Assembly: GCA_018902385.1 (NCBI GenBank)
Contig: JABSSW010000033.1
Coordinates: 310,001 to 374,000, forward strand
Direction: 5' to 3'
Length of the DNA: 64,000 bases
From: Physcia stellaris
Lineage: Eukaryota; Ascomycota; Lecanoromycetes; Caliciales; Physciaceae
Program-made: the position numbers and the translations under genes
Notes under the pieces: model-generated
The model's input: only the letters and a program-made list of their open reading frames with translations
Told to the model about the DNA's origin: nothing
The model's database searches: none
In this document: one piece after another, positions 2,042 to 61,947 of the stretch
Position numbering within the stretch: the first letter of the stretch is position 1
How the letters are laid out: every line of letters starts with the position of its first letter

Positions 2042-2264
2042 AGAAAAGAGAATAATTAGCACAGGTGTAGATCGTACGAAATCGAGACCCAATGAGATCA
2101 ATTATCAGAATCAATGAAGCAGATGTAAGATGATTTCAATTATGATTAAACAAATGATTGTTACAGATGATTTTGTAAAAGATCGAATGTCAAACATATA
2201 AAATTAATCACGTGCAATTTGTCAATTGATTTTTCAATCAATTTTTTGTTATTTTTTTTCAACA
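2042..2264 (-). repeat. LTR of element A (3' LTR)
   Basis: A 223-bp direct repeat of 17153-17375. The first about 90 bp keep normal sequence, whereas the inner part is converted to AT-rich sequence. Preceded by the target duplication TGTAC at 2037-2041. Confidence 0.88.
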
Positions 2265-2899
2265 GTTTTTTTACACAACAAATCGCTGTTTTCAACGACA
2301 ATTTATTAAATTATTTTCGAATGACAACGTCGATATTCATATGTCATCGTTATTTTGACATCGAATTTCAAACAAATTAATAAAATGTGTGATTGTTCAA
2401 CAATTTTCGAAACATCAAAATGATCAAAAACGCATATATCAAATAAAAAATAAAAATTCAAATTGATCAATGAATTTCACATACGAAATATCGTTTCGCA
2501 AATTCGAAATGTCGAAATCGTATGTTAATTCGAAAATTTCGTTTTTGAACGATTCGAAATTTTGCAATATATCGATGACGTAATTTCGATTTGTATGACA
2601 ATTAAATGAATTTTTTATCGATATTTGATCGAAATCGAATTATATTGAATAAATTGTTCAAATGATTTTTTGATTTTTCGTTTTTGTTTCGTTTTTTTCA
2701 TCGTTTTTTTTCTCGTTTTTTTCAAATTTTTCATGATTGATAAAATTTTTTCGTTGATCGATCGCAAATATTTTTCACGAACAAAAAAAAATCGTAAATG
2801 ATCATCGTGAAATTGATTCGAAATTTTTTTATCATCGAATTTCAAAAAATGATAATTGAATTCGTGTTCGTTTGTTGAATTAACGATAACAAACGATTC

Positions 2900-3677
2900 A
2901 CGTCATCGAAATACGTTTTTGTCAAAAATGAAATTGATGTCACGAAAAAACACGTATTGATCGAACACGAATAATTTGAATTTGATTTCACGATCGTAAC
3001 GTTTTTTCATGCGTTGTTTAATTTTCGTCATGCGTTTTATCACATTTTTATGAATTTTTTCGCGTTTAATCATATGATTTCATATCAGCGATAACATTTC
3101 GTCAAAATTGAAAAACACTATTTTTTCGAACAACTGTAAAAGTTGTACAGATCGAACGACGACGAGATTGAAGAATTCGATATCATGCAAAATCTGATTG
3201 AAAATGTATTCAAAATGTTTTATGTGACGATCGTTACAAACAAAAATTGTTCGTCGAAAAATATCAAAAAAATTCTCGTTGAATTTTTTCATTTTGTTCA
3301 TAACATGTTTGAATATTTTATTGTTTCGTTCAATCATATCGACGAATTTGTGAAATTGATTTGAAACAAATATACAAACAATGTCACGATTATCAAACAT
3401 ATTTTTCATTTTTATCGATTTGAACGTCGAATTTGCATTTCAATACATCGTTGCAAACATAAAATGTTCATTATTTTGATAATAATCAAACGTTTGTTTC
3501 ACGTCAAAAACGAAAATATCGAATGTTGAATACGCAAATAAAATTTTAACGAAATAATCGATCATATTCAAAATATTTTTGTATTCGTGTTCGAAAAAAT
3601 CAAATCAATCGATGAAATCGATATCGAACAAATCGTAAAATTGATACGTTTGAATTAAATGCAAAAAGATTTGACGT
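2900..3677 (-). pseudogene. integrase catalytic core and C-terminal part of element A, broken
   Basis: Read on the minus strand just inside the insertion point of B, a frame with stops gives IQTYQFYDLFDIDFI followed by ILNMIDYFVKILFAYSTFD, the first-Asp region of retroviral-type integrase cores. Further on, FHKFVDMIERNNKIF contains the Glu region and is followed by a segment like the integrase C-terminal linker. Pro, Gly and Trp positions are replaced by Phe/Ser, Asp/Asn/Glu and stops. It continues the zinc-binding half found at 11043-11200 on the other side of element B. Confidence 0.8.
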
Positions 3678-3682
3678 GCAAT

Positions 3683-4074
3683 TGTAAAAATTTAGACGCG
3701 TTGACGTAGAGCAAATTTCAATAATGTATTAACTTTACGATAGCGCATCGAGCTATTGAAAGACGTGAAATTTAATAAATTTCAATTATTAACTATCAGC
3801 ATCGTATGAATATTGTAAATGTAAAATTAATCGTTGAAATTCAACGAGAAAGAAAGTGAACAATTTATTTATATTCGTATTTGACGTAATAGTTATGACG
3901 CTTTGATTAACGTCATGATTATGACATCAATTCATGACGTTTCTATTAGACGTGCGTTTATAATTAAATTACATTTGAATTACATTCATTATTAATGTCA
4001 AACACTTGCGTTACGCAAACGCGTATTCAAAACTAACGCATGAATTAATTGTTCGATAACGCGAACGTATTACA
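3683..4074 (-). repeat. LTR of element B (3' LTR)
   Basis: 392 bp, the same length as 10646-11037, with TGTAA/TTACA ends and GCAAT duplicated outside. The two copies differ mainly by C/T and G/A at CpT and ApG positions. Each copy is the less mutated one in a different part. Confidence 0.92.
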
Positions 4075-5929
4075 ATTGCTTTTTTTTTTTTCAATGCGTT
4101 GATTTTCAGTGCATAAAAACAATATCAATGCAATAAATAAAAACAACATGTAGATGTTTTGATTGTAAAGTTTCAAAAAATTCATTGAAATTCGTATCAA
4201 AAAACTTTCAAAATTTCGAAAACAAACGAAAAAAAAAACTTTCAAGAAATATCATGTGCGATATCATTTTGCGTTTATGTATCGTTTGCTCAAAAACTCG
4301 TTAAAAATTTTTCAGATTTTTGTTCAAAAAAAAAGTTTTCAATGTAATTGCGCAATCGTAAAGCATGTTTTCAATGCAAATTTTGAATGACAATGTTTCA
4401 AAATCGAGAATCGAAATGTCAACATCAAAATTTGAATGACGAAATTCAAGTTCAGTTTTATCGAAACGTCGACGCGAATTTTTTGTTGATAAACATGAAA
4501 TTTCGTCGATTGCGAAAACAACGTGTCGATAGTTTCACGATGTTGTTTATCAACAAATTTTTTGTTCGTTTTTTTTTTTTTTTTTTTTTTCATATTTTTT
4601 TTATCACAATTTTTTTCGCGTAAAGTATTTTTCAACGTTTGCGCAACGTTTGTTTATGTATATAATTATCAATACGACAATCTATTTATTTTCAAATCAT
4701 GATCGATTTTCAAAAAAATCGACGTAAATATCATGAAACGCGCGCGTCACGAACGCAAACAACAACAACAAATTAATTTGTCATAATTTGCGAAAATTTC
4801 GCATGTATGACGTGTTTTGATCGTCATGCGTGCGTTCGCGATGCTTTGAAAATTTGCGAAAAATGTCGCTTTCAACATCACGATTCAAATTTCTGTCATT
4901 CGATATGTATTTGATTGCGCACGCGATGCGACAACGCTAACAATTCACAGTTTTCAAAACGATTTCGACGACGAATGAAAAAAATCGTGCGCGAGTTCGC
5001 AAAAACTCAACGACGCGATCAATTCATTTTCGCTCGCATCGAAAAACGAAAAAAAAATGCGATTGTTGATTTGAAACAATGACGTCACAATCATGAATAC
5101 ATTTCGATTATCGCAAATCGCGCACAATCAACGATCAATCGTGTCACGATTTTGACGAATCAATTTGACGAACGATTGACGAAAACGAAAAAACAAATTT
5201 TTGATTTGCAAAATGAAATTGAAAAAAAAAAACGAAAAAAATGATGTTGACGAAAAAAATGAAAAAATTGAAAAAAAAAAAAAAAAAATTGATGAATTTT
5301 TTGATGAAAAGAAATGCGCAATTGACGATAAACAAACGAAACATTTTTTATTTTCATTTTCGCATTAATTGAATACAAAAATTTCATTCAGAAAATGATG
5401 ATTCAAAAATCAAAAATTTCGAAAAGAATTTTTTTTGCGATTTCGATCGACGAAATGAATTTCGATGAAACGAATTTTTCGAACATTTCGAATTTTTCGA
5501 GTTCGTCGAATTTCGATTCGTTCATTTCGAGCGAATTTGATTTCGATTCGAAATAAATATGCGATGAATAAACGATTTCTTTTCTGTTCATAGATTTTTT
5601 TTGTTTGACGTTTGACGTTTGTTTATTTTTTTTTGTTCGTGATCATATGTTGATGTTGAACGATTTTATCGTTTTTATCGCTTTAAACGATAAAACGAAA
5701 AAATCAAATCATTGTTGACATTGAAACAAAATAAATTATTTTGAATTGATTAATGACGTCGTTTGCGTTTGCGCGACGCGCGTTCATTGTATTTTTTCAT
5801 CAAATTTGAAACATTTTTGAATTCATTTTCATGTAATCATTGATTATATTTCGAATTTCAATCAAGTCATTTGATTTTGTATCAAATATTTTTTTTGTCA
5901 TTCATTTTGTCAAAAATTTTTTCAATTTT

Positions 5930-7150
5930 TTATTGTTTTTCGTCATCAATGAGTTTTGAAATTTGCATAAACTGTTTCGCATGCTTATCGTTTGCTTTAT
6001 GATGATACTTTTTCAATAACGAAACATGAAAAATATTATGAATGCGATAAATATTGAATAAAATAAAACGATACGTTTGCGCATCGACTTTATTTTTCAC
6101 ACGAAAAAGTTCAACAAATTTGTGCGACATTTTTTTGCTAAAACGTCGCTGCTTAAAATTTTTGATATTGAACATTATTAAATCATTCACATTGAACTTT
6201 TTTGATTCGTGATTTTGATTGTAATATTTCGCTTGTTTTGCGACAGCGAATTCTAAACGTTCTATCAACGTTTTTTTTATTTCATTCAAGTGCTTGACTC
6301 TTTTTTTTGCAATGAATATTCTCTTTTCATTGAAATCGTTCTCGATCACATAATGAATTTCTGAATGATAATCATACATAAAATAAAAAAACGAAACATT
6401 TGCAAAGAAATGCGTAACGTTATTATAAACAAATTCAATCATTGAAAACATATTTGTTCATTTCGTCTGTTTCGCGTCGACGAATGTACGCAAATACGTT
6501 TCAAAATTTGATTTTGACGTTCGATTAAATCATTCGTTTGAAAATGAAACGCAATGTTTAATCGTCGTTTAATGCGAACGTGATAACACATCGAAAATCA
6601 AAATGCATTCGTGAAAACAAAATTTCTGTCATTCATTATATCATTCGAAACGTCAAATCGAAAAACAATTTTTTCATAAAAGATTTTCGTTAATGCAACG
6701 ACATCGATTTTGATCGTAATCGAAATGTATTTGATCATTTTGATATAACGATTCATTATCATTAAGATCGAGTCATAGACGACATCGCGACGCTTGCTGA
6801 AAAACAAGTCGATGATAAAGTTCATGATGATTTTTTTTCAAGAAATATTCGAAACAGATAAGAATTTGAGCTTTTCATAAAGTTTATGTCGATGAACTTT
6901 GATACGTTGACATATGTCACAAATTTTGACATATGAACGAATTTGTTTCGCGCAAACGAATCAATAAAATTTTCGTTGAATCAAATTCACAGTTTTATCA
7001 ACATCAAAATGTTTTGTCAAAAAATCATCGTGATTTTTGTTTATGAGTTTTTTTTTTACTGTTGCATTTTCAAATACATAGAAACGATTTTTGAATTTAA
7101 AAAAATTTTCGAAATTCATTTTTCAATAAAATTTGTTGCGTCGACGACGA
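5930..7150 (-). pseudogene. integrase of element B, broken
   Basis: Near 6900-6960 the minus strand reads IRSYVKICDICQ, the CxxC half of the integrase HHCC zinc domain. At 6825-6598 comes a core segment like MNFIIDLFFSKRR with YDSILMIMNRYIKM and NDRNFVFT. The first catalytic Asp is Asn here and the usual DRG is DRN. DLIERQNQ near 6520 holds the Glu. The 173-residue open frame 6451-5930 is the C-terminal part (FVYNN to FHVSLLKKYHH) and contains no Pro, Gly or Trp at all, although family members are rich in them at these places. The protein cannot be functional. Confidence 0.87.
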
Positions 7151-7949
7151 AATGATTTTTTGCTTTTTTCAACAAATTTTTTAATCGTTTTATCGATAGT
7201 TTGAAGTTTTTTAATCAAGAATTTCATTGATTTTTGCGACTTTTCGTAGAATTTCTCAAATAGATTTCGCATTTTTTTTTTAGAAATGACAATTTGTATA
7301 TCAGTCAATTAAAACAATGAATTTAGATTTTTTAACATTTCGCGTTTGTTTTTCGCACGCGTATTGTTTTTGAATAGCTGAATATTTGTTGCGATATTCG
7401 AAACAAAATTTTGATTTTCAAAATCGATTCGTTTTTGACGATAGCGCAAGTTTATTTTGCAACGTGAACAAAAGTTTGATATTGAATGACGACGTTTTTT
7501 CGTAATTTGAACGTCTCGACGACTCATTTGTCGAGTTGATTTTGTTTGTACGATGAAAAATTTCGAAATCATAAACAGTTAATTTAAAAATTCATCTGAT
7601 TTGTTTTGAATTAAATTTTTTTGTTTCATAAATTTTTTTTAAATTATTGTGATCAAATCACATCTCTATCGCGTGCGCAGCGTTTTCGAAATAATGTCGT
7701 CATTGTTGAAAAATCATAATTATAATTAATAATTTCTGATCATGAATTTCGTAATTCATTTTTGTCGATATCATTTTTCGCGATCAGAACGCGATCGAAC
7801 GTCAATGATTTTGTTCATCAAATTGACTAAAAATATTTGAAATTTCGAAATTCGAAACATCGATTTTCATTTTGATTTTTCTGACTGAATCATAATGATG
7901 AAAAATGAAAATCGATGTAAAAATATCGCGCAATCGACGAAACGTCAAT

Positions 7950-9005
7950 TTCGACTTTTTTTTTCAAACAAAAAATTCAAATTTTTTGTTTTGTTTATTG
8001 TTTTTCAACAAATCAATAAGTGATGCAATCAACTTTGAGTAATCATGAATAAAGCGACGATAATAATTGACGAAATTTAAAAACATTTGTAATTCGCGAT
8101 AATTTTTAAATTGCGATCATTTTTCAATGATTCGAATTTTTTCTGAATTCATTTGTACATTTTCAATGAACACAATGAAATTTAGAAATTCGATTTGATC
8201 GATGACAAATTCGCATTTTTTTAAATTGACATACAGTTCGTATTGTTTCAATCGCTCGAGCACAAAACGCACATGTCGTCAGTGTTGCGTTGAATCGTTA
8301 CTATATATCAAAATATCGTTCAAATAGATTACACAAATGACGTCGACAAGTTTTCGCAAAGTTTTATTGATATAAGCTTGAAAAATTGTTGAAATATTGA
8401 TTAATTCAAAAGACATGATTTGATACTCAAAATGCTCATATCGCGTGCGAAACGTCGTTTTTCACTCGTCGCTCTGCTTGATGCGAATTCGATGATAAGC
8501 ATTTTTCAAATCGATTTTGATGAATTTCTTGACATCATTAAAACGATTCAAAATTTTGTGATTAGAAATAATGAATGACGATTCTTGATAATCATCGCAT
8601 TCAAATCTCGATAATTCACACAAAGACGAAAATTTTCATTTTTTTTCGATACAAAAAGTATCGACGCGTCAACGAAAAAAATTGAATGTTTAATTCATTT
8701 TTGATCAAGACATTTTCGATGTAACGTCGAAGTTTCGCTAATTCATTCTGTGATAAATTATACAGCGACATAAACGACGATTTTTCGCTTTTTTTCAAAT
8801 CAATAGCATGATCACTTTTATTTAATTCGAGTAAAATATTTGTTTTGATGTCGTCAAATTGATTTTCTAAATTCTTTAGTTGCTTTGACATTTTCGTAAT
8901 TTTAAATTTTTGTTTTCTCGATTGTTTTTCGATTTTTGCACACATCAACGCGAATATCTGCTCGTGACTTTTTAAATTTTTTTGCAAATTGTCTAGACGT
9001 ATCAA
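7950..9005 (-). pseudogene. reverse transcriptase of element B, broken
   Basis: Minus-strand relics follow the usual gypsy RT order: DHAIDL and LSQNELAKLRRYI (8600-8850), [16 protein letters not shown] after an apparent frameshift in the homopolymer at 8674-8681, then QAYINKTL and the catalytic box YLNDILIYS at 8300-8326, followed by HVRFVLERLKQYELYVNLKK and FLNFVNYYRRFI near 8.05-8.1 kb. The box should read YLDD. The first Asp is Asn (AAC), exactly what a GpG to GpA change of TTG-GAC would give. The enzyme is dead by this substitution as well as by stops. Confidence 0.9.
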
Positions 9006-9499
9006 TTTGAAGTTTTTTGAATTTGATTTTGAAACGTCAATTGCTTTTCGTCGAATTCATTAATATGTTTTCGACAATCAACATAAACATACTCAAAATA
9101 AAATTCGATTCAATATAATCAATTGCATAAAACAAAATTTTGCATTGACGATGTTGATTTCACGAATCTATTATGTTGTAAATGAATTCATGCGTTTCAT
9201 AACAATAACGATTTTGTTCATTCAGAAAATTCGATAACGATAAAATAGTTTCGTTTATCGATTGCATTTTTTATTGAATGACAAAAGTTTGATTGATAAA
9301 ATTGATTTTGATTTTAAAATTTACGAACGCGCGAACAAGTCGTTCATTTTTCAAAAATCTGATTCAGTTTTGAATCACGATAAAATTTCGAATTTTTATT
9401 GATTTTTTTTGTTTCGCTTGCGAGACGTTCGCGAAATTTGATTTTTTTTTGACTCAGATGTGACGTTGACGACAGCGATAATATGTTGATTATTCGATT

Positions 9500-10500
9500 C
9501 ATTTACATCAGTTTTACAATCGAAAATATAGTGATTTTTGCGATGACATCGATAACACGTTGATTTTGTATTTTGATCATTTTCATTGCGTTTTCGCTTG
9601 CTTTTCGCATGCGTATTGCGTTCAAAATCGTGAGAAATGTTTTGATTGAAACGATTTTGCGATTGATTTTGTTGTTGATTTTGTTGTTGAAATTGTTTTT
9701 TATTTTTGTTTTTGTTTCTTTTTTGCTTGAAAATGTTTTGATTATTTTGTACGCGAATTTGTTCGTCGCTCGCGTTCGAGAATTTTTTTCAACATGACGA
9801 TTTTCGCAAACAAGTTTTTCTTATTCGTCGATATTTTTTCGATATTTAACAACTTTTTTTTCAACGATGACAATAATTTACAAAAAAAAAAATTGATCGA
9901 ATGAATTTCATCAAAAAACGACAAATGAGTTTCGTATTTTTCGAATTCATTTTTGAAATTAAACATTTTTTGATTCGCGCGTTGACGAATTCGTTTTCAA
10001 TTTTCGTAAACGACGAATCGACGATTCACTGAATTTGCTATCAAATTCAAAAAAAAAAAACTTATAATAATCATAAAAAATATTTTTCAAGTCTTTATCG
10101 TTATCGATGCGATTGAATCATTGAAATTGAAAATTTTCTCGCAACGATGACATGCATCAAAGAATTTTCGATCGATCATTCATAAAATAACTAAAGCACG
10201 TCAGAAATTCGAGTTCGATTTCGCGAAATCAACGAATATGTTCATTTTCATTCTCGCTTTTGTAAAAAGACTGTTTTTTGAATTTTCGTTTTTTAAAATG
10301 AACGATAAATACAATTGATATTGATTGCGTTTGCGATGCGATAACGAATTGCGTTGCATTTTGATTTGTTCGAATTTGAATTCGCAATTGAACAATTTCA
10401 TCGTTAAATTTTCGAAAAGCAATTGTCATTTGTTTCAAAATGCGTTGCGTCGTCGCATTGTCAATAATAAAATCGTTTGATTGAAATTGATTCACGTCGT
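9500..10500 (-). pseudogene. gag-like region with CCHC zinc knuckle, element B
   Basis: The minus strand at 9557-9516 encodes CYRCHRKNHYIFDC, an exact C-x2-C-x4-H-x4-C knuckle as found at the C-terminus of retrotransposon Gag. Upstream (9.6-10.5 kb) lie short Asn/Phe/Lys-rich frames interrupted by stops, in the position of the capsid part. The protease would lie between 9.5 and 9.0 kb, but no active-site triplet could be recognised. Confidence 0.8.
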
Positions 10501-10645
10501 TTCAATTCGAAAAAATAATATTATTTGAAATATTTGTAGTATCATCAAGATTTTTTATTTTGAAATTTGAAATGTCGATATTGAGTTCAATCATAATGTT
10601 AATAAATTTCGAATTTTTCTTTTCGAAAAATGAAACGATTAAAAT

Positions 10646-11037
10646 TGTAAAAATTTAAACGCGTTGACGTAAAGCAAATTTCTATAATGTATTAATTTTA
10701 CGATAGCGCATCGAATTATTGAAAAACGTGAAATTTAATAAATTTCAATTATTAATTATCAACATCGTATGAATATTGTAAATGTAAAATTAATCGTTGA
10801 AATTCAACGAGAAAGAAAGTGAACAGTTTATTTATATTCGTATCTGACGTAATAATTATGACGTTTTGATTAACGTCATGATTATGACATCAATTCATGA
10901 CGTTTTTATTAGACGTGCGCTTATAGTTAAGTTACATTTGAATTACATTCATTATTAATGTCAAGCACTTGCGTTACGCAAACGCGTACTCAAAATTAGC
11001 GCATGAGTTAACTGTTCGATAACGCGAACGTATTACA
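10646..11037 (-). repeat. LTR of element B (5' LTR)
   Basis: Direct repeat partner of 3683-4074, equal length of 392 bp, same TGTAA/TTACA ends, followed by GCAAT at 11038-11042. Confidence 0.92.
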
Positions 11038-11042
11038 GCAAT

Positions 11043-11200
11043 CACGATTCATTGAACACATTGTAAACAATTAAATATGTATGATTTCACATTTGAAATC
11101 ATGAAAAATCAATATATTCGATTTTTAATGCGATTAAAAACGATATTTGACGAAAAATGTTTTGTTTCGTCATGAATTTTTTGCAACAACGATGCAATTT
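11043..11200 (-). pseudogene. integrase zinc-binding domain of element A, cut by element B
   Basis: Minus-strand frame reads IHDETKHFSSNIVFNRIKNRIY, then a TGA, then MISNVKSYIFNCLQC. The two His and the CxxC form the HHCC domain of retroviral-type integrases. The TGA stands where the family has Trp, as expected for TGG to TGA. The frame runs straight into the insertion site of B, and its continuation is at 3677 downwards. Confidence 0.8.
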
Positions 11201-11846
11201 TTGTTTTTGTGATACAAATACATCATTTTTCAACGTAAATATGCAATAATCGATTTGTTGATTCGTTTCATCGATAATTGTTGATTTTACGTTTGAATGC
11301 GATCATCGTTGTTTTGTTCAAATTTTTCGATGATTTTTTTTGTGCGTAATATGTGTAAATATTCGAATATCAAATTTTTTGAATGTAATTCGATTTTTTT
11401 CATTGATTATATTTTTTGTTCGAAAATTTTGAATTATCGCATGTAATTTCGAGTCATTTTTTGCATCATATGACGTAAAATCGAACAAAAACATTGTTTT
11501 TTTACACAATAAAACGTTCAATTCATTCGAACAATGATTTTTTCATCGTATTTTTTTATTTTTCGTTTTTCGTTTTTTGCAAACAATCGTTTCAACGTAT
11601 CGCGATATTCGTTTTTGTCAATTTTTCAAAATCATTCGATATCGTTTTTGTGTTTCGTGATTTCGTGATGCAAATTTTTGATCAATTGATCGAATTCGCA
11701 ATTTTTTTTATTGAAAATCACACGTGAAAAATCGTCGATCATTTTATTTTTTTTGTTTTCAATGTATTTGATTTGAATATTGTGATTTCGAAATTTGTTG
11801 ATTTAACGAACATAAATATTTTCGTGTTTTTGCGCATTCATGAATT

Positions 11847-12153
11847 TCATGAACGATTTGTAATCGATGTGAATTGTGTTTCGATTTTTCGAATCAAAAA
11901 TGTGTTCATATTTTTTAATAAAATGAACAATCGTGAACAATTTTCGTTTGTAAATATCGTAATTACGTTAAATTGAATTGAACGAAACGCAATCATATAA
12001 AATTGATTTGTTTTCATCGTTTTGCAATTGATTGATGTAAATGTCATTATCGTATGTTGAAACGTCAATATAAATTTCACAAAACAACGTAAAATCATGA
12101 TCAAACATGTTCATTACGTTGAAACATATTTTTTTCAAAATTTGAAAAAACAA
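11847..12153 (-). pseudogene. RNase H relic of element A
   Basis: Two overlapping minus frames give IYIDVSTYDNDIYINQLQND, ILYDCVSFNSIQF and FIRKIETQFTSIT. This is the layout of gypsy RNase H: an Asp-containing first strand, a YDSxSF-like block, and the TDHK strand here changed to ITNRS. A frame change separates the pieces. Confidence 0.72.
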
Positions 12154-12385
12154 ATTTTCGAATTCGAATCATCGTCATTCGATTTTGTTGTCGCAAATAC
12201 GTTGTAATGATTTCGCGATTTCATCGAAATTGAGCATTTAACGTCTAATAAATTGTATCGTTTCTAAAAAGTTTCGTATTGCAATGACATTTTGAAAAAT
12301 TGATCAATTGCGTATTTTATTCATGAATTTTTGTTTGATGTTCAAAATTTTATCGATTCGATGTAATTGATCGAATGTTTTGAAT

Positions 12386-12900
12386 TCAATGATTTCGATT
12401 TTCAATTTGAATAAAAAAATTCGCATTTGAAATCACAATAATCGAAAAAAAAAAATGATTTTTCAAGAAACTGTATTGTTTTTCGAAAATACGATGTGTT
12501 TCGAAAATGTCATCATTGTAAAAAAATATGTCAGAAAACGATGTTTTTCTCAATGCATGTAATAGTGACGATTCTGCATTCGAACTGAATATAAAATCGA
12601 ATATTATGTTGATTAATTCGATAAAAATAAATGACGAAATTTTCGTTTTTTGAAACATGCGAATAAATTGCAATTGATCGATATTTGATACATAAAAAAT
12701 CAAATAATGACGATTTTCAAAATGTATCAAAACGTTTCAATAATCATGTTTTATATCAATCGAAAAATAACAACGATGATTTGAACGTTTTAAAAAATCG
12801 TGAATACGTTGTGCGAATTTTATCATATTTTCGTCGAATTTTTCGTATACGAAATGATAATTGAACGTTAATTTTGATTTTATTTGTTTTGTTTTAAATA
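12386..12900 (-). pseudogene. reverse transcriptase relic of element A
   Basis: The 114-residue minus frame 12730-12386 holds QLQFIRMFQKTKISSFIF, ELINIIFDFIFS and the catalytic box FYNDDIF at 12509-12520 in the place of F/YxDD, followed by EKQYSFLKNHFFF. The order matches the palm domain of a fungal gypsy RT subfamily. Pro and Gly positions are replaced as elsewhere in the block. The fingers domain upstream is scrambled by stops. Confidence 0.72.
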
Positions 12901-15089
12901 TTAAAATAAATGCAACATTTCATTGAAACGTGCGATCATTGACGATAACGATACGTTCGTACATGTCGATTTCAAAATCTTTTTGTATGATTGTCTGATA
13001 TCATCATTTTTTTCAGACGTAAATCGATGTTGTTTTGCATTGTAAAATTTCAAATCAAAACGAAAACAAATTCGATGTATAATAAAATCAATAATCGATA
13101 TATTTTTCAATTTTTTCGCATTTACATTACGAAATATTCAAATAAATTGCAAAATTTTCAATCGCATATTTGCATTCGATATGACGTCATTCAACGTGAT
13201 TTTTTCATTTTTGATTCACTTTTTTTAGAAAATTTGAAAACATTGTATCGTCAATGATGCGACGAGTAATGCGACGAGTAATAAAAAATTCAAAATTTGA
13301 TTTTTCGTTTATGAAAACGTTTCTTGAATAAATTATCGAAAATTTTGATTTCAATTTATTTTGTTGTTCGTTTCAATGAAATATGCAAACGTATTCGAAC
13401 GAACAACGACATTTTGATTCATTTGTTTGATTGACAAAAATTTTGTAAATGCGATTTTTTTTTGACGATTTCAATGAAATATACAAACGAATTTGATTTC
13501 ACATTTGCATTCGAATTCGATATCGAAATCATTGAACGATTGTAATGTTGCGTTATTGATTTTGAATGTTGTATTTTTCGTTTCTTGTCAACGAGATGAC
13601 GATTCACAAATATCGACGTTTTTGTTCGAATAATTTACGCATGAATTTAGATGCTGATATATCGTTTTTTTGAGTCGATTGAGATTTTTTTTATTTTTCA
13701 TTTTCATCGTCGAATTTTCTTTAAAATCGTCAGCAAAATCTATTGAAAATTCGCGTTTTCTGAGTCAGAATTTGAAGTAGAAAACTCGCTAAATTTTTCA
13801 TTCGAATTTTTTGATTTCTTTTCGAATTCGAAGTCATTGAAAACGATTTTTTTGATGATAATACGTTCGAACGTCTTTTGTACGTTGATTTTTTTTCGTT
13901 CAAATGAAATATTCGAATTATGAACGTGTTTCATTTTTGTCAAGTCAAAGATTTTAATTTTCGAATTGATATTTTTGATCATTTCATTTTGAGCGAAATT
14001 CTCTATTTGAATTTTTTTGTTTTTGATGTCAATTTGTGCGTGCATCGATTGAAATCAAAATAAATCGAATAACAATTTCGTATTGTTGTCATTGTGATTC
14101 GAATTGACGAAAATTTAAATTTGACGTTTAATGTTTTCAATTTCGATATTCAAAATAATTCAAAATTTCAATTCATGACGATTTTCATTGATTATCATCA
14201 TGCGCATTTCGTTGAAATTTAACAATTTCGATGAATAAACGTTCAATTTTATGTTCGACGCGAATTTCGCATTGATGATAATAAAATTCGAATTTTGATT
14301 TGTTTTGATCGATTCAAACGATAAATCGATGCGAAAAAATTTCGAATTTTTGTAAAATATGCAGAAAATTTCATATGCATTATTGATGATTTTCACGATT
14401 TCATAATATTTTTTGATTATTCATTGCACGCGTTTATTTTTGTTCGAACGAACGAATGTGAAATTGATTTTGAACATTGACGTCGTTGTTTGATTGATTT
14501 TTTCGATTTTTTTTTTGCGAAATTTTCGAAATGCATTAATAAAACGTTTCGTTTCATCGCGAAAATGAAAAAATAATTGAAATAAATGTAATATCGACAG
14601 AATAATCGTTTGATTCAACAACAATTTTTCAATCGAAATTTCTTGTCGATCAATCATATTCGCAATAAATTTCAGAATTTTTTTAACGTTTTTTTGTTTC
14701 AATTTTTTTTTTCGATCGTTTCGAAATTGTTGCAAAAAATTTCGCGAAAAATTTGATTGAATTTTCATTCGATTTTTTATCATTATTTTTTTTGATTTTT
14801 TTCTTGATTGCGTTTATCGCAAAATGTTGAATTCGAACGATTGAATCGATGATATTTGACTGAAAAAAACAAAATGAATTGCAAAAAAAAAAAAATTTTT
14901 TAAATCGATATTCGCAATGTAATTCGTTGAAATGTCAATTGTGAAAAAACGAAACGCAAATTCGTAACAATTGATAAAAATATTGTCGTTTTCATACATA
15001 TAATCGATGAAAAAAAATGATACGACGAAATTTGCAAAAAAATGAATTTCGAATATTTCGATATAATATGTGATTGATTTCGCAAAAGA

Positions 15090-16103
15090 TTAAAATACAT
15101 TCGATTGCGAAAATGATATTGTTGATTCGTTTGATTTGTATAATCTTGATTGATATAATGTAAAAACAAATAATATATTTGAAAATAATTGTTTTGATTG
15201 TATAAAAATCGAATTGTAATAATTTTTTTTACGTGATTTGTATGCAATGATTTGTTGTAAACGACGTTTTGCGATCGAAATAAATTTTTGATGTTCGTTA
15301 CATGTACATTTTTTGAAAATATGATCACAATCGTCGCATGTATGACAACAAATATCGTGTTTTATTTTGTTGTACGTCACATTTTCGTTGATAAAACGAT
15401 TGAAATGAATTTGAACGTTGAATTTTCGATTTGTTTTTTCACGTTGTTTTTTTCATTTGATTTCGTCACGAAAAAATGATATAACAATTTGTGATTGATT
15501 TCGAAAATTTTGAAAAAAATATTTTGAATATTGTTGCAATTTTGAAATATTTGAAATAAATGATTTTATGTATTCGACGAAATTGATTTTTGAATACGTT
15601 CGTTATTCGAAATTTTGATTGATTATCGTTGAAAACGTCGATTGTTGTTGTATATCACGTCGATAAAAATTTTTTGTCAATCAACACATTTTGCACGATT
15701 TTGATTGTTTTTGTTTTGACGTTGAAATCGATCGAATTCAATTGTTTCAAATAAAATTCGAAAATTTTAAATCGTTCGTTTTTGATTGCTTTTTGTGTTT
15801 GAAATTTTAAACGTTTTTCGAATTGCATAACGTTGAACATTTTTTTGCAAAAACGCAAATTTTTGTCAAATTTTTCATTTTTGCGATCATGTTTTCGATA
15901 TATTTAACATAAATTCGTTGTCGTAATTTCAAATTTCGTATATCGTTGATGAATTGTTTGATGAAAAAAATCAAAAATATGCGTTCATTTTTTGTCAATG
16001 TGTTGTTCACGATGTAATTTTGATCGTCGTTTTCGACAAAAATTTTGTTGAATCGTTCATAATATTTTCGAAAAATTTCATTTGTTCGTTGAATTGTATT
16101 CAA
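15090..16103 (-). pseudogene. gag-like region with CCHC zinc knuckle, element A
   Basis: At 15347-15306 on the minus strand CHTCDDCDHIFKKC fits C-x2-C-x4-H-x4-C. The Lys/Asn/Phe-rich frames 16103-15807 and 15858-15655 lie upstream, where Gag capsid is expected. The knuckle also fits other CCHC proteins, but its position between the 5' LTR and RT makes Gag the natural reading. Confidence 0.65.
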
Positions 16104-17152
16104 AATTCGATCGATGCGTTCGTCATCAATAAAAATGAATTTTTTTTTGACAAAATATTTATCGCAAATAATTTTTTTGAATTCATTTTTGTCATTTTCA
16201 ATGACATTTTTTTGTTAATCAATGTTTGAATTTTTTTATCGTTGTTAATTCAGTTTTTGAGCGTTTCAACGAACAAAATTCAAAATTGCAATATGTATTT
16301 TTCAGACGTTAAATTTTCATGTTTGAATTCGTGATTGAAATTCACGAATCATTGAAATTTTTGCATGAAATCGTCAAATTTTTTAAACATTTTGCGTGAA
16401 AATTTGCGAATAAAATAAACAGACGTTGTTGATTGAAATTTTGAAAAAAAAAATATCGATTGCAAATTGCGTAAATGTTTTCGAAATGAAATGAAAATAA
16501 TTTTCATTGATTGTATTTCTCGTTGATGTAATTCAAAATTTACAATCGTTGCAAAAAATTTTGAAGTCGTAATATATGTGTGATCGAGAAATTTCGCAAT
16601 TCGAACAATTCGTTGTGATTTTCAATATGATATTTTTGAATTTTTTGATCATTAACGTAAAAAAAAAATGTTTTGATCGTTGAACAATACGTAATGTTCG
16701 TGTTGATATCGTTTATGAATGTGCGTTTTGATTGAATCGTTTCAAAAATTATTTTGTTCAATAATAACAATTTTTCGTAATCGTTTTTTTTCATTATTCG
16801 TAATGAAAATTTCAGCAATCGATTTGAAAATATGTTTGATATTTTGTTTGCAAACGATGCAAAATATCAAATCAAAAAAACAATTCGAAAATATACAAAT
16901 TTAAATTCGAAAAATTCAACAACGAAAAATGCAACGTGTTGATTTGAATTTCGTCGTCAATTCAAATCGTATGCAATTGAAATTTCGAAATTCGATAATA
17001 ATGATATAAAAAATTTCGTCGTTCGAAAAGATAAACAAACGATAAAATGATTGTCGTATAATAAAAAAGTTCGATTTTGTTGTTTTTAAAAAATAAACAA
17101 TGAGCGATCAACGACGATTTTTATTGTCAATCGTTTTTCGAGAATGAGCATC

Positions 17153-17375
17153 AGAATAGAAAATAATTAACACAAATGTAAATCGTACGAAATCGAAATT
17201 CAATGAAATCAATTATCAAAATCAATGAAGCAAATGTAAAATGATTTCAATTATGATTAAACAGATGATTGTTACAGATGATTTTGTAGAAAGCCGAATG
17301 TCAAGCATATAAGACTAGTCACGTGCAACCTGCCAATTGGCTCTTCAATCACTTTCGTGTAACTCTCCTCCAACA
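17153..17375 (-). repeat. LTR of element A (5' LTR)
   Basis: 223 bp, pair of 2042-2264. Here the outer (right) about 90 bp are unmutated and the inner part is AT-converted, a mirror image of the other LTR. Read on the minus strand it begins TGTTGGAGG. Followed by TGTAC at 17376-17380. Confidence 0.88.
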
Positions 17376-17380
17376 TGTAC

Positions 17381-18056
17381 AACGTCGCGTCTGCTCTTCT
17401 GGCTCCATTAATGCGTCAGTCAAGTGATCGTCGTCCTCCCACATAGCCATCCTGCCGATAGGATCCGCGCCGATCCTGCACTTCGGGCCTGATTCGTCTG
17501 CAGTCGCATCCGTCATTCTTACCCATTCTTTGATTTGGCTCTCCTGGTACTAAGCTGTCACAAACACCACGTTTCTTTTCTGACCCACTTGTGGTTTCGG
17601 TGTCTATCAATTCCTTGTAGTACGTGCCAAGAAAAGTCTGAACAAGCGAGTGACACTGTCAGGGTTGACAAATCGTCTTGTCTGCAGGGTCTATTCGGAG
17701 CAGTTGTGTTAGGGAGAAGGAACAAGAAACTGGTAATTGGTCAATAAGCGAGGCGTCACGTGACGCACCTTAATTGCTTGGCAATAGGCCTACTAGAAAT
17801 CCGCCCATAGCACACCTACAGAGCAACAAGATTATGACCCCCCAGAATCATGATATCAGAGCCAGATTAGACCCCTTATTAGTGACCTATTGTGCAGCCC
17901 CTGCGTATCGCTAAGAACCCCATTTTCTAGTTGCTGCACAGTAGGCGCAAGCCCCATTGTTAAGCAAGCCGGAAACCGTCACGGCGTCTTGGGCCAGCGA
18001 ATACCCTCCATGTTCTCCCATACAATCTACAATGTAGCGAGCAGCGGAAACAAGCT
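17381..18056. other. intergenic, 5' flank of MFS gene
   Basis: Normal-composition DNA between element A and the MFS transporter. A 64-codon minus frame (17610-17416) has no recognisable family. Nothing else supported. Confidence 0.5.
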
Positions 18057-19787
18057 ATGGAAAAGCCGCCCATTGAATCTGAACGAGAGTCGGTAGAGAG
18101 CGAAGCTAATACCCGCCCGAGTGGCGTTATCCGAAGAAGATCCAAGGAAGCTTCCAAGTTCGACCATCGAAATGATAATATCGATACTCTCCAGCCAGCA
18201 CCTGAAATAGCGGGGTCGGAAGAGCAGTACTACACGGAGGGTTGGCGCCTATTTCTCATCCTCTTCTCTCTCCTCCTTTCTCTTTTTTGCCAGGCACTCG
18301 ACGATACCATTATTGCAACCGCAATTCCCCGTATAGCCGACGATTTCAAACATCTAGACGATGTTGGTTGGTATGGGAGTGCTTATCTGCTCACCAACGC
18401 AGCTTTTCAGCTTTTCTACGGCAAGCTATACCAGATCCTGCCGCTACGATGGGTCTTTCTGTGCGCATTGTTGCTCTTCGAGGTGGGTTCCTTGATTGCT
18501 GTCGTTGCGCCGACAAGCCAGACCTTGATTGCAGGCCGCGCTGTGGCGGGTACAGGGGCTGCTGGAATCACCAGTGGGGCACTGAACATAATGGCCCACG
18601 TTACACCAATTACTCAAAGGCCATTGTTTATGAGCTTGATCGGTGCTGTATACGGAGTTGCCAGCACTGTAGGACCTGTCCTTGGAGGAACTTCACGGAA
18701 AGGCTTACATGGAGGTGGAGTTTCTATATTAATCTGCCTATTGGTGTTTTCGCGGCCATTACTCTTCTTCTTACACTCAAACGCCTTCCGCCCAGTGCCC
18801 AAGGGCCTCGTCTCCCCTTCAAAGTGGTGATGACGCGGCTGGACCCTGTGGGCACGTTATCGTTTGTCCCAAGCATCGCCTGCCTCCTCGTGGCACTTCA
18901 ATGGGGGTACTACGTATGCTTGGTCTGACAAGCGCATAATAGCACTCTTAACCGTCTTTGCTGTGCTTCTTACGACCTTCATCGTCGCCCAACTCGTGCA
19001 GAGCGACGAAAATTCCACCATTCCCAAGCGCATAGCTCGGAACCGCAACATGGCTTTCGGCGCCCTCTTTGCCTTGTGCCACGGGGCCGCCTTCAACCTC
19101 TTCATCTTCTACATCCCGCTTCATTTCCAAGCCGTCAAAAACGCCAGCCCGATAGCTTCTGGCATCGACTACCTTCCTCTCATCCTTACAATTACCGTAG
19201 GTATCCTCATTGCCGGCTCACTCACCTCCAAAATCGGCTCCAACATGCCCTGGATTTGGGCCTCGAGCATCCTCATGTCCATCGGCGCTAGCCTGCTGAC
19301 GCTCCTCCGCGTGGAAACCGAGACCGCACGCTGGGTCGGCTATCAAGTGCTCTTCGCCGTCGGCTCGGGCCTGGGCCTGCAGCAGCCATTTTTGCTGGCC
19401 CAGATCGTGCTACCCCTTGAGGATGTTGGCCCCGGGACGGGCGTCCTGATGCTGGCTATGCTTGGCGGGGCGGCGATTTTTGTCAGCGTCGCATTGAATG
19501 TTTTCACGCGGAGTCTCGTCTCCGGCATCGCGGCGCTGGGGCTCGAGGGTGTGGGTACGCGTTCGATTATCCAGCTGGGTGCGACGCAGCTGAGGCGGCT
19601 CGTGCCGCCGCAGGATGTGGAGCAGGTGCTGCATGTGTATAATGCTGCGCTTGTAAAGGCGTATCAGGTCGGGCTTGCCATGGCGTGTGTTTCCGTTGTT
19701 GGGCCAGCGGGTATGAAATGGATTAGGTTGCAGAAGAAGCATGAGAAAAGGATGGAGAGTGAGTCCCAGAACGATGAGGAGAAATGA
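18057..19787 (+). pseudogene. DHA2-like 14-TM MFS drug/toxin exporter with two frameshifts
   Basis: Membrane proton antiporter of the major facilitator superfamily, of the type that exports fungal toxins and drugs. ATG at 18057 starts a hydrophilic N-tail, then ALDDTIIATAIPRIADDF and YGSAYLLTNAAFQLFYGKL (TM1-2), and GAVYGVASTVGPVLGG, the antiporter motif C of TM5. Directly after LGG, at about 18686-18695, the homology jumps to another frame (ERLTWRWSFYINLPIG). At the GGGGG run 18903-18907 it jumps back (GTTYAWSDK), then stays open to the TGA ending at 19787. About three bases are missing overall. There is no room for an intron at either jump, since coding continues within a few bases. Either the gene is inactivated or the assembly has two indel errors; both breaks lie next to G runs or repeats. 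Read in the first frame alone it would stop at 18830. Confidence 0.85.
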
Positions 19788-20876
19788 GAAGATCGAGAGC
19801 GAACTTTCTGTGATTTCAGTCAGGATGAAAGACAGACAGGATCGATTGGTTCAATATCACGATTCTTAGTCAGGTAATTAGAGATTTGGAAATCATTTAG
19901 ATTATTGGCGGGGTCCATTTTGTGCCACACTTGTAATCAATGGACATGCTTCCTCCTTCAGGATCAATATGCATGTCCGTCGATCAACAAGCCTTTTAGG
20001 TTTATCCCCCAGTCATGCCCAGCGTTCAGATGGACGATCTACCACAGCTTCCATATGGCATATATAGTTCTGGTGAAGCCAATGCATAAACAGTAAATAC
20101 CGATTTTATTGGCCGTGAAAGCGTCACCAAGCAGCAGGAAACAGAGTCTCAGGATCCTTCCAGTCTTTGTCTCACTCCCTTCAGCATTTATCATTGGTTC
20201 AGCCACGAAGAACAGGATACACCGGGATTCATCACCAAGTCCGGCGTTCAAGATTCTTTTATTATATCATCAAGCATCATCGATGTTACTGTCTACTGTT
20301 GCCCAAGATGGCCCTTTAAACCATAGGAGGTCCCAGAATGGAGAGAGATCTTCTACAACCGCTTCACTTGCTGCTCTGTCCAGCTTAGCCGCCCCTCGGG
20401 CAAGGCGATTGGGATGGCATCATGCTCTGGCTGTGTGAGTCAGCGCACGTTTACAGCATTGCCGCCCGATGGGGCTGCTTGGTTATGATATTTAAAACAA
20501 TAACGTAAGCTAGGGACTTCTTGTACATGAGTAGATCTGCAGATAATGGATCACACCATTAAAAAGGCATGGACGTGCATGGAGATCCAAAGGGAAAAAA
20601 AGGGTGGGGTCAGCTTCAAGCACGTGGTTATTCCAAACGAGGGTGCCATAGTGAATCTCAAGAATTGATGCACAGGAGTCTCACACGAATCAATGCGAAG
20701 GAGACTGACACGCGATGAGCTGTGCCCAACCTTCCAATAGAAGTTGTACAATCCGCTTCCCCCGGCCATGCATTATCCAAGCGCATCAACGGAGAAATGC
20801 GCTTGACCAATTCGCAAGATCTGACATATGTCATTTGCTACATTGTGTCATTGTCTCTCCACTGAATGACTCGATA
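19788..20876. other. intergenic, nothing recognised
   Basis: No supported gene. A 109-codon plus frame (20109-20438) has no recognisable family or start context. Confidence 0.5.
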
Positions 20877-21091
20877 TCTCACGGCCTGATACTTAGTAAT
20901 GCTAATTTTCATACTTTTGCCCTGACGGACCTGCGATTACCCAACTTGAGACGAAATCAGAAAATGATGTCTCTTTCTTGTTATATTCAAATATTTTGTG
21001 TCAAGAACGGGTACACGTTTTGTCATAATAATAATGGGTATATCAGTGATGATGCATAAGAGGCAAGATAGCATCACACCAGACCATGGGA
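20877..21091 (+). mobile_element. MITE-A copy 1
   Basis: About 215 bp matching the dispersed family: degenerate left end (TATCTCACGGCCTGA), inner block GATTACCCAACTTGAGACG, AACGGGTACACG, and right end CACACCAGACCATGGGA. The right TIR is intact, the left diverged. Confidence 0.75.
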
Positions 21092-21261
21092 AACAGAGAT
21101 AAGTGTTCACATCAGACCACGAATACAAAGATAATTGGCAGAATTGCGGGACTACCTCGGAAAATCGTGGTTTCTTGCCACCATATCTGATTGCCTATGA
21201 CTATGAGTGCAACAAATCCATCTTGGATAGCGTGGTCAGTCCTCGTCGAAGCCTAGCGGCA

Positions 21262-22262
21262 TTATCTAGCGGGTGACACTTGCGATCCCCCCTCAATGGC
21301 CAGGTTCCCGATTTCCTTCCGTCTAAACTCAATCACAGCTTCCAGTCCCCCAAACTTCCCTCCCATCCTGAACATCCGCCAAAGACACGCGATTGCCTGC
21401 AACACCTGTCCATACCTCAACTGCCCACTGGACTCAAAAACCTCCGCAGTATCAATAATCCCGATCAATGCATACGAAGACTGTGTATCTCCAAAACTGA
21501 TGGCGTTAATGGGCTCAGCGGCCTTCTGTAGCGAGCCATGTACGGCTGCTTGAGCCATCGCGTTCAGGCTCGCGGTAAACAGCTTTTCGATGGGGGGATT
21601 GTCACCGGTGAAAGTCCCATGTATGCGGAAACTGCGGTCGTATGGGTCGGACATGGCGAAGATGTCGCCTCTTCTCGCTGGCAGAGGGGTGCTGAATACG
21701 CCTAGATCCCGGGACTGCACTCGGTCGATAGTGGCGTTGGCATCGACAGTTGACGCCCTTCTCTCGATCAGTACCTTTCCAAGCAGTTGATCGTCCACGG
21801 AAATGTTCGCGAGAGCACGATAGTATGACGGCCCGCCGGCCATGAGGATGCCCATGTCGTACATACCTCGGATGAGATGTTTTGTATGTAGTTGATTTGG
21901 TCCTTCTGTAGGGGAGTCAGAGGCGAATAAGACGGTAGGGTTGTCAGCAGTGCTGATTCCTATGTTGTCTGTGATTGGGAATTCCCATGGCAGGTGGCCG
22001 ATGTGATTCATCGCTTGTACGAGGACGAGGTAGAGTTCCCATGAGTTGATTGCGGAGTGTATGTCGTATTGAACGGCAACGGAGAGGCCGTCGACGGTGG
22101 GCGGATAGAAGCTCGAGAGCGATGAGGAGTTGGATCTAGGTAGGAATTAACCTGTCGGTGGGAGAGGGGATAGGATGTGGAGGTTTACATAGGGAGCGAT
22201 GCTGCTTTGACGAAGCCCGAAGTTGAAAACACAGCGAAAAGACACCAGCTAAATTTCAGCAT
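21262..22262 (-). CDS. predicted secreted protein, function unknown, 2 exons
   Basis: Exons on the minus strand: 22262-22189 and 22135-21262, joined across a GT-AG intron (GTAAAC...CCTAG) with fitting phase, giving 315 residues. The first ATG opens a clear signal peptide (MLKFSWCLFAVFSTSGFVKA, cleavage probably near AASLP). The mature part is soluble with no further membrane segment. It includes DGLSVAVQYDIHSAINSWELY, HIGHLPWEF and a C-terminal half rich in Ala and Gly. I do not recognise a family or catalytic motif. The frame shows no damage, and signal peptide plus intron make a real gene likely. MITE-A copies lie on both sides. Confidence 0.82.
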
Positions 22263-22877
22263 TCCAAATATTCGTCTTCGACTCAACATCACTGGTATAG
22301 TAAACTCCTGGGTCAGTATGAACTTCGAGCTCTATTTACTTTAAAGCCTATTCGTCTTTGAAGCTGCGAGTATTTCGTGGCTCGACCTCCATGACCTCTA
22401 TTTTGCGGCATGAGCGCTTATCACGTCGAGGTCGGACCACTGCCAACTGGACGATGAGAGCAGAATAGAAGCGCGACATGCGAAGCGCCCGAGCGATGAC
22501 GTACTCGTGCAGGAGACATTTCCTTCTAATATATACTGGAAACAAAATGCAAGGGTGGAAAGAGGATCACAAACCTTTCTCTATTTGTATTCCTTGCACT
22601 AGTGGAGGATGGCACCTTTTTCTTAGCGCCCGAAGGCCGCCTAAAAATTAGCGCCCGGGGCTCCTCCACGGCGGAGGTGGGGGCGGCCTCAGGCGGCGGC
22701 TCACCTGGACCCTCGACCAAAAAAACTTGAAGGTATCATACCAGTGCAAGGCATAGTCGAGAGCAAGATCCACCACATACTTCCTTTCGCGCAGCTATAG
22801 ATTCATATACTCACCAGGAGCTAGTACAGATGTCTCTCTCCTTATTATGGAACTGTACGACACACGTTATTGGGGTG
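22263..22877. other. intergenic with a GC-rich patch
   Basis: Upstream region of the secreted-protein gene. At 22620-22720 a GC-rich patch repeats TAGCGCCCG twice and can fold small hairpins (CCTCC...GGAGG). No gene is supported here. Confidence 0.45.
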
Positions 22878-22879
22878 GC

Positions 22880-23114
22880 TATCCCATGGTCTGGTGTGGT
22901 GCTATCTTCTCCCATGCATCGCAATCGATACACCCAATATATATGATAACACGCTTACCCGTGTTTGGCACAAAGAATATGAAGACGGCATGAAGACAGT
23001 ATGAAAGTGACATGAAGACAACATCATCTTTTTGATTTCGCCCCAAGCCGGGTAATCGTGGATCTGTCGGTCGTATCTTGAAATTAGCACCACTTGTTAC
23101 CAGACCATGGGATA
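22880..23114 (-). mobile_element. MITE-A copy 2, best-preserved ends
   Basis: Begins TATCCCATGGTCTGGT and ends with its exact reverse complement ACCAGACCATGGGATA. The ends behave as a 14-bp TIR TCCCATGGTCTGGT flanked by TA. Perfect TIRs plus a TA target suggest a non-autonomous Tc1/mariner-type element. No coding capacity. Confidence 0.88.
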
Positions 23115-23375
23115 GCAACAGAGTGTTCGACATCTCTCATCGCCTGTTACAGTAAAGCGAATCTCCATGTATTAACAGACGCAATATACTGGAAACTGTA
23201 AAGATAATCGATATCATGAATCTTGATCCATTTTGCATGATACGCTCCACGAGCACTGTAGAGACTATCTCGGATTTTCGTCTGGAGAGAATCGAATTGC
23301 GGACAATCTGGAAAACAAACACTAAAAAGTCTAGAAATACATCTTCAAAGTGTGTTGATTATTCCCTAACCTTTC

Positions 23376-23870
23376 TCATTCCCTCATAGCGTACTTGCGG
23401 GTCCAAAATCTAGCAGTCTCCTCAAAAGCAGCCCTATCATCCATGTACTGTTGTGCTATGGTCGAATCTATCGCATGATGTGGGTTTGGAGCAGCTAGCA
23501 GCGCTTGTATAGCCAGCAGCACTTCCTCGACGGTCACGCACGGGGTCCAGTCTTTGTCCTTCTGTGTAAGAGAAATTCCGATGCTCAATTCAAGATCCTC
23601 CATATGAAGAACGCGAACATCGCCTGAATTCTCCACGTTGGGGTGGTAGATGGGTGTACGTGAGAATACCAGGGGCGGTGAGAATGGGTAACCCTCAGGA
23701 AACTTAATTCTGAGATGGAAGTTGCCACCCTCGTATGGTGAATTGGGGGGCCCTTCGATAGTTGCTTCCCATTGGAATAGATCTCCATACACTGGTTCTA
23801 CTGATATAAGCGGAGGTGGATTCGTGAGCATCTGTGCGAGCTCCTTTTGGATGCGGACCGCTGCAGCCAT
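23376..23870 (-). CDS. E2 ubiquitin-conjugating-like protein lacking the catalytic cysteine
   Basis: A single-exon 164-residue UBC-fold protein, closest in feel to the Ubc4/Ubc5 class: N-helix MAAAVRIQKELAQM, PYEGGNFHLRIKFPEGYPFSPP, HPN at 76-78, and the C-terminal helix ETARFWTRKYAM. In Ubc4/5-type E2s the active Cys lies ten residues after the His of HPN. Here that residue is Arg86 (GDVRVL), a change one T-to-C step from Cys. About ten extra residues (LELSIGISLT) follow before DWTPCVTVEEVLL. Removing them as a 57-nt intron would not restore a Cys at the site. It should therefore not form a ubiquitin thioester and may act as a UEV-like partner, or it is a young pseudogene with an intact frame. 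Confidence 0.85.
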   Translation of the reverse strand: MAAAVRIQKELAQMLTNPPPLISVEPVYGDLFQWEATIEGPPNSPYEGGNFHLRIKFPEGYPFSPPLVFSRTPIYHPNVENSGDVRVLHMEDLELSIGISLTQKDKDWTPCVTVEEVLLAIQALLAAPNPHHAIDSTIAQQYMDDRAAFEETARFWTRKYAMRE

Positions 23871-25699: not shown

Positions 25700-25723
25700 T
25701 TGAATAAATCAGCACCGGGACAT

Positions 25724-29345: not shown

Positions 29346-29367
29346 GTGAGGATTATAATTCATCCCA

Positions 29368-29620: not shown

Positions 29621-29799
29621 AAACACAAGATAAGTCTGAATAAAATCTTCTATTTCACTATCTGGAGCAAGATGCTGAACTCCAACGTCTATATCGAAGA
29701 ACGCAGCACTTTCGTTCAATTCCACGATAGCCCTATTCTCAGCACATAGTTGAATTTAGATGACATCAAGTGATAATTATATTTCTGGGAGATAGAGAG

Positions 29800-34245: not shown

Positions 34246-34251
34246 TTCGCC

Positions 34252-61919: not shown

Positions 61920-61947
61920 ATTTGTATGGCCACCAGCCAATAGACAA

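Follow-up and report, generated by a model that had tools for sequence, protein, structure and literature searches.

Repeated DNA in the lichen fungus Physcia stellaris has lost most of the cytosines that precede a pyrimidine (CpY), which have become thymine on both strands, while cytosines before a purine (CpR) were largely kept. The stretch analysed here, called the window, is 64 kb long and covers positions 310001-374000 of contig C33 in a P. stellaris assembly of 43.97 Mb and 147 contigs. This assembly was the genome searched throughout, and its extent differs from that of the published draft, given as 46.57 Mb in 184 scaffolds in the accessible part of its description (PMC7513301). We consider it very probable that the change was made by a homology-triggered C-to-T mutation process of the repeat-induced point mutation (RIP) type with CpY specificity. 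An earlier note on this DNA had proposed a RIP-like process with a different sequence preference, and comparison with an unmutated copy supports that proposal.

Two blocks of the window lack CC and GG

The first mutated tract (2090..17293, both strands) spans 15,204 bases between flanking CC/GG occurrences, with mutation visible from ~2132. The second (36622..40864) is equally free of CC and GG, which are retained in the outer 96 and 51 bases of the repeat that contains it, element B. The two CC/GG-free gaps measure 15205 and 4244 bases, and the third longest across the window is 146. In 200 base shuffles of the same composition, CC+GG averaged 549 and 169 in the two blocks and never fell below 484 and 135, compared with 0 and 0 observed. 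Both blocks are AT-rich, with 27-28% GC, and the DNA between them (17294..36621) is an unmutated control. Odds ratios for CpT were 0.20 in block 1, 0.09 in block 2 and 1.07 in the remaining window; those for ApG were 0.25, 0.07 and 1.06. CpG was strongly over-represented (3.35, 3.78 and 0.86), CpA was undepleted (1.32, 1.28 and 1.10), and TpA was low (0.41, 0.35 and 0.72).

The hand count of two 60-base lines in the earlier note proved exact: 19 C (10 CpG, 9 CpA, 0 CpT, 0 CpC) and 17 G (10 after C, 7 after T), with TpA at 4 and ApT at 13. Its claims of spared CpA and low TpA extend to the full blocks. The claimed depletion of both CpC and CpT held completely for the former, as CpC and GpG are zero; CpT is strongly depleted and not zero, with 150 CT and 183 AG left in block 1 and 20 CT and 14 AG in block 2. 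The note had also expected standard RIP indices to fail here. TpA/ApT is 0.41 in block 1 and 0.36 in block 2, and (CpA+TpG)/(ApC+GpT) is 1.45 and 1.20. By the cut-offs of the RIPCAL paper, ≥0.89 for the first index and ≤1.03 for the second (PMC2621366, where the accessible text prints the second with a different numerator, treated here as a misprint), both blocks score as unmutated on both counts.

An unmutated copy reveals the target context

Within block 1 lies element A (3680..11038, minus strand; LTRs, or long terminal repeats, at 3680-4074 and 10646-11038), a heavily mutated Ty3/gypsy-type LTR retrotransposon. It was typed with Pfam on an unmutated relative, which has reverse transcriptase, RNase H, integrase and Tf2-1 SH3 domains. 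An unmutated A copy at C52:252957-260314 has 51.6% GC and LTRs identical at 398/400, and its cytosines are followed by A, C, G and T in nearly even shares (0.247/0.252/0.243/0.259). With this copy as the reference, six mutated copies (the window copy, L039, L040, L041, L042 and L044) had C changed to T at 4045/4135 CpC, 3877/4488 CpT, 241/4186 CpA and 111/4121 CpG sites. Pooled, 7922/8623 CpY sites had changed (91.9%) versus 352/8307 CpR sites (4.2%). The share of original C that changed was ~98% at CpC, about 78-95% by copy at CpT, ~6% at CpA and ~3% at CpG. A set of 12 A loci (L013-L024, ~2.5 kb of A each; L013 is the window, and other analysed copies are among them) gave 3598/3704 for CpC, 3378/4008 for CpT, 220/3671 for CpA and 120/3748 for CpG. 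Only 0-3 CC/GG are left inside A in each of these loci, the many CC of L015, L018 and L024 lying outside A. The earlier note had named, as the outcome that would speak against it, C-to-T change between copies mainly at CpA; against the unmutated A copy the reverse was found.

The changes are almost exclusively C:G to T:A transitions. The window copy of A differs from the unmutated copy by 1093 CpY-type and 43 CpR transitions, 29 reverse transitions and 16 transversions. Both strands were affected, with 317/330 CpC sites changed on one and 269/278 on the other. In the window copy, all CpC sites whose neighbour is unchanged are now T (337/337); surviving CpC cytosines are mostly found where the second C itself became T, and 16/22 of them in the window copy are in CCC. 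The 5' base has only a small effect, both at CpC (ACC 162/168, CCC 97/99, GCC 153/164, TCC 174/177) and at CpT (ACT 91/119, CCT 164/197, TCT 113/142 and, least, GCT 131/191). Surviving CpT sites were clustered in 5/6 A copies, equally between and within strands, so that strand-specific processivity, or mutation in strand-wise tracts, is unsupported.

LTR pairs and copies of element B show the same changes

The two LTRs of element A differ at 23 positions, 22 of which are C/T before a pyrimidine or G/A after a purine, the other being a transversion. Element A is inserted inside an outer LTR-type element (2042..17394, minus strand, ~15.3 kb including A) with terminal direct repeats at ~2042-2283 and ~17153-17394. 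In each outer LTR, the inward part is mutated and the outward part is not. In the LTR-LTR alignment, the left unmutated edge (2042..2131) has a mutated counterpart in the right LTR, and the right unmutated edge (17294..17394) has one in the left LTR; each LTR therefore serves as the other's control. Their 48 differences comprise 32 of CpY type, 4 with mixed neighbours, 2 G/A after a pyrimidine and 10 transversions.

Element B (36525..40916, strand not assigned) could be compared only among mutated copies. C/T differences between the window copy and 11 other B loci numbered 739 at CpA, 3 at CpC, 251 at CpG and 469 at CpT, and C was present in both at 3217 CpA, 0 CpC, 4492 CpG and 41 CpT sites. 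Tabulating copies by 3' neighbour, as the earlier note had suggested, therefore puts CpA ahead in number because CpY is nearly exhausted in both members of each comparison; as a rate, CpT is far ahead (0.92, compared with 0.19 for CpA and 0.05 for CpG). A CC/GG-free run of 3.0-8.0 kb is present at 10/11 of the other B loci.

The description of the three repeats as unrelated retroelements, also made in the earlier note, stands for A. The outer element has LTR-like repeats, and its lone coding signal is a sub-threshold gag match (E 0.05, Pfam); B is unclassified, as none of four mutated pieces gave a Pfam match above threshold. All three are multi-copy. Two pieces of A have at least 17 and at least 16 genome matches, a 601-base piece of B has at least 13 including the window, and a 701-base piece of the outer element has at least 6 of ~700 bases, including the window, plus at least 10 short ones. 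A search of IMG/VR with the A polymerase region found no relative. In L029, L030, L031, L032 and L034, short pieces holding just the two ends of B (window 36534-36677 and ~40792-40916) adjoin full-length B at its right end and resemble an internally deleted derivative in tandem.

Mutation in the window lies within long repeats

The 1-kb flanks of both blocks are normal in composition. The left end of B could be placed in 11 copies, including that in the window, and in 10 of these the last CC/GG is found 7-174 bases in from the element's edge; the eleventh, L037, is an incompletely mutated copy. Six copies allowed the right end to be placed; CC/GG survives in its outer 51 bases in the window, and L034 gave no value. 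The window also has several minisatellite arrays at 29949-34239 and 46826-47055, with units of 51-189 bp in 1.8-4.9 copies. CC accounts for 0.25 of C contexts at 29949-30620, 0.10 at 32387-32835 and 0.21 at 33898-34239, and for 0.10-0.25 across the four arrays measured. Within the window, then, both mutated blocks are multi-copy, and CC persists in the flanks and in four short tandem arrays; these arrays may be too small to trigger mutation. This pattern fits a process that detects homology over long stretches, although it falls short of proof. RIP in Neurospora has a recognition threshold of ~80% identity; judged by that figure, mutated A copies at ~75% identity may escape recognition as partners of a new copy.

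The host genes recognised in the window with Pfam are an MFS transporter (18057-18830), a ubiquitin-conjugating enzyme (23376-23870, minus strand), a cytochrome P450 (45340-46692), an O-methyltransferase (53295-53831) and an AAA_11/AAA_12 helicase (57712-61947, minus strand).

Stop codons and lost amino acids in other elements

Loss of CC and GG means that no glycine (GGN), proline (CCN) or tryptophan (TGG) codon is possible. When the CpY rule was simulated on two unmutated polymerase pieces, it produced 11 and 7 TGA stops and no other stop, all from TGG, so these elements would be disabled largely by missense change. A simulated CpA rule produced TAA and TAG only. On a host gene, the CpY rule gave 15 TGA and one TAG; the TAG is also present under a CpT rule and is most likely the gene's own stop.

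Among Copia reverse-transcriptase profile matches (150 of 165 candidates were scored, yielding 137 matches), 133/137 contained stops, with 401 TGA, 101 TAA and 3 TAG. Nine of ten DDE_1 transposase matches contained stops as well (44 TGA, 3 TAA), bringing the pooled counts to 445 TGA, 104 TAA and 3 TAG. The predominance of TGA fits CpY rather than CpA mutation, and since Copia and DDE_1 share the spectrum, the signature reaches beyond gypsy-type elements.

A 175-residue piece of the mutated A frame matched 34 database proteins, which were 49-84% identical to the query and 38-69% identical to the unmutated copy. Glycine, proline and tryptophan are absent from 20/34 of them over 97-193 residues, compared with 10.2% in the unmutated copy; the other 14 have 1-20 such residues. 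His, Gln, Cys and Met were kept at 19/19 positions in the closest protein, P0241, and at 5/14 in P0267, and the distant proteins mix in other kinds of change. Three of the 20 sit on contigs >140 kb. The CpY signature is perhaps present in further genomes, though some of these proteins could be P. stellaris's own. As the query was itself a mutated piece, the sample is biased and gives no measure of the signature's frequency or species range.

The genome encodes two RID-type methyltransferases and a DIM-2-like one

A search of the genome with PF00145 returned four stretches in three genes: a DIM-2-like gene on C3 with a 1118-residue reading frame, RID-a on C5, and RID-b, a short RID-family gene at C6:790900-792559 (L025:2401-4060). 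The RID/DIM-2-type enzymes that the earlier note proposed to look for are therefore encoded, and a RID/Masc1-type methyltransferase, a feature of RIP, is present twice. By sequence, both RID proteins match structures of the DNMT1 and HhaI types, and inspection by eye found in each the motifs PPCQ, E-[QE]-T and PQ-x-R-x-R, which we take to be catalytic. One RID-like protein is 99% identical to P. stellaris G7Y79_00005g016670. In a tree of 98 proteins chosen from 240, plus RID-b, built by a quick method with long branches and an unsure deep order, RID-a groups with other lichen RIDs. RID-b is placed in a separate, long-stemmed clade of 19 rows that includes a homologue from Heterodermia, and on this tree we reject a recent Physcia duplication as its origin.

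Judged from these sequences, a RID-family cytosine methyltransferase is most likely the mutator. In Neurospora, the DIM-2 pathway acts on single-copy DNA flanked by repeats and RID acts on the repeats themselves, according to the accessible text of a recent survey (PMC12543289). Mutation that keeps to repeats, as in the window, fits the RID pathway better than a Neurospora-type DIM-2 pathway. In the mechanism that we propose, long repeated DNA would be recognised as repeated, and one or a few intense episodes would follow, as the burst-like pattern suggests. Cytosine before a pyrimidine is then changed to T on both strands, the step seen directly against the unmutated copy, probably by a RID-family enzyme that prefers CpY over CpA. 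More tentatively, and with less than even confidence, we suggest that RID-b has turned into this CpY-specific mutator of repeats in Physcia and its relatives among lichen fungi. A second RIP system would then run in parallel, one that inactivates genes chiefly through the loss of Gly, Pro and Trp codons and less by stops, and that was overlooked since standard indices assume CpA.

Alternative explanations

Several observations weigh against this account. CpY specificity is not absolute, because TAA makes up 104/552 stops and all six A copies show a higher rate at CpA than at CpG (pooled 5.8% vs 2.7%); the TAA stops may reflect either ordinary mutation or a weak activity at CpA. The strands are unequal at CpT in the window copy, with 302/371 changed on one and 197/278 on the other. 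The 10 transversions and 2 G/A changes after a pyrimidine in the outer LTR pair do not match the rule, some of them falling in the alignment tail past the LTR end. Two B copies have little edge sparing (7 and 13 bases), and in L029-L032 CC remains absent for 214-344 bases beyond the right end of B, where the B-end pieces adjoin. The element copies are related, so their counts are non-independent, and the genome-wide evidence consists of family matches, which are lower bounds, and individual copies. We infer the homology trigger, the timing of mutation and the choice of acting enzyme among the encoded methyltransferases.

The acting enzyme could instead be DIM-2-like, combining heterochromatin-directed methylation with non-CpA mutation as in Neurospora's second RIP pathway. 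The genome does encode such a gene, and a 2026 review, in its accessible part, ascribes CpT preference to DIM-2 methylation (PMC13297926). However, the Neurospora enzyme hits repeat-flanked single-copy DNA (PMC12543289, accessible text), whereas the window flanks are normal and repeat edges are mostly spared, and we regard this alternative as unlikely. Less likely still is slow decay, in which non-CpG cytosine methylation of repeats and spontaneous deamination would act over long times. Such decay would likewise confine C-to-T change to methylated repeats, and a CpY bias would be possible if the methylase were so biased. Yet L040, with 97.0% of CpT and 99.7% of CpC changed, has 8 transversions among 3,729 other aligned sites, and the 16 matches listed for a 701-base piece of the unmutated A copy are that copy itself and 15 at 70-78% identity, with none intermediate among these. 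Because residual identity to the unmutated copy is 95.5-98.5% once CpY changes are excluded, and L040 has those 8 transversions against 1254 CpY transitions, we favour a burst over slow decay.

C-to-T hypermutation of mobile elements is also typical of DNA cytidine deaminases (AID/APOBEC- or bacterial-toxin-like), which would act on retroelement cDNA or single strands, and the genome has eight deaminase-fold matches. Known deaminases of these types choose their target by the 5' neighbour, whereas here the 3' neighbour decides. Moreover, both strands were hit, and DDE_1 transposases, which are not retroelements, have the same stop spectrum; a deaminase seems slightly less probable even than slow decay. 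Separately, one cytidine/dCMP-deaminase-fold match (C64:178666-179121, 81 bits) contains four internal TGA, to be explained by introns or by CpY mutation of a duplicate gene. Base-composition drift or an assembly artefact would account for AT-rich blocks, but neither agrees with the absence of CC+GG that same-composition shuffles contain in the hundreds, with CpG 3.4-fold over-represented, with mutation edges inside LTRs or with the long CC/GG-free runs at other B loci. We give this explanation almost no weight.

Relation to known RIP systems

RIP-type CpY mutation in P. stellaris resembles the RID pathway of Neurospora crassa in that C:G becomes T:A on both strands, repeats are hit, neighbouring single-copy DNA in the window is spared and a RID homologue is encoded. 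It differs in its target, CpC and CpT rather than CpA, in the scarcity of TpA relative to ApT, in stops that are predominantly TGA and in negative standard indices; the classical CpA preference with gain of TpA is absent. In the accessible parts of the literature, CpT mutation beside CpA is described for Botrytis, Sclerotinia and Magnaporthe (PMC4352252), Anisogramma (PMC10998396) and Neurospora Tad1 (PMC2621366), and CpT was the dominant context in one alignment study of RIP-capable fungi (PMC7882544). There CpT accompanies CpA, whereas in P. stellaris CpC is hit more than CpT, and CpA almost escapes. The word CpC does not occur in the text of PMC4352252 at hand, nor is it a dominant context in the accessible CpT-reporting literature. 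RIP-like mutation outside CpA is also described, in the available text, for Microbotryum (TpCpG) and Tuber (PMC4352252, PMC2621366), although in the CpG context, which is the least mutated in P. stellaris.

The lichen fungus Cladonia rangiformis has RIP in sharply bounded, strongly AT-shifted retrotransposons and has RID and DIM-2 homologues; the main text of that report names no dinucleotide context (PMC12542154), and the process there could be the same or a different one. The parts of the P. stellaris draft genome paper at hand contain no RIP analysis of the species (PMC7513301). According to its accessible text, a survey published in 2025 and covering 1,239 fungal genomes concluded that a preference for CpA is common to RIP-like defences. 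It lists 130 species with strong recent signatures, from four classes that do not include Lecanoromycetes; the word Physcia is absent from its main text, and the P. stellaris genome may not have been included (PMC12543289).

Given that CpT contexts have already been reported in several ascomycetes, the CpT half of the signature is not new. What appears new is that CpC comes foremost and CpA is almost spared, and we regard a process that works like RIP and lacks its classical CpA feature as a new variant of RIP. No report of a CpC and CpT context with CpA spared was found in the literature searched, as far as its accessible parts go; most subscription papers, and Clutterbuck 2011, reportedly a main dinucleotide survey, lay outside it.

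Mutation at CpY that removes nearly all CpC does not follow the CpA preference claimed for RIP-like defences in general, and surveys based on the standard indices can miss heavy RIP. Since catalysis by RID has so far escaped detection in vitro, according to the accessible part of a review (PMC13297926), the difference between CpA and CpY targets provides a useful natural contrast for locating the residues by which enzymes of the RID type recognise the nucleotide 3' to the target C.

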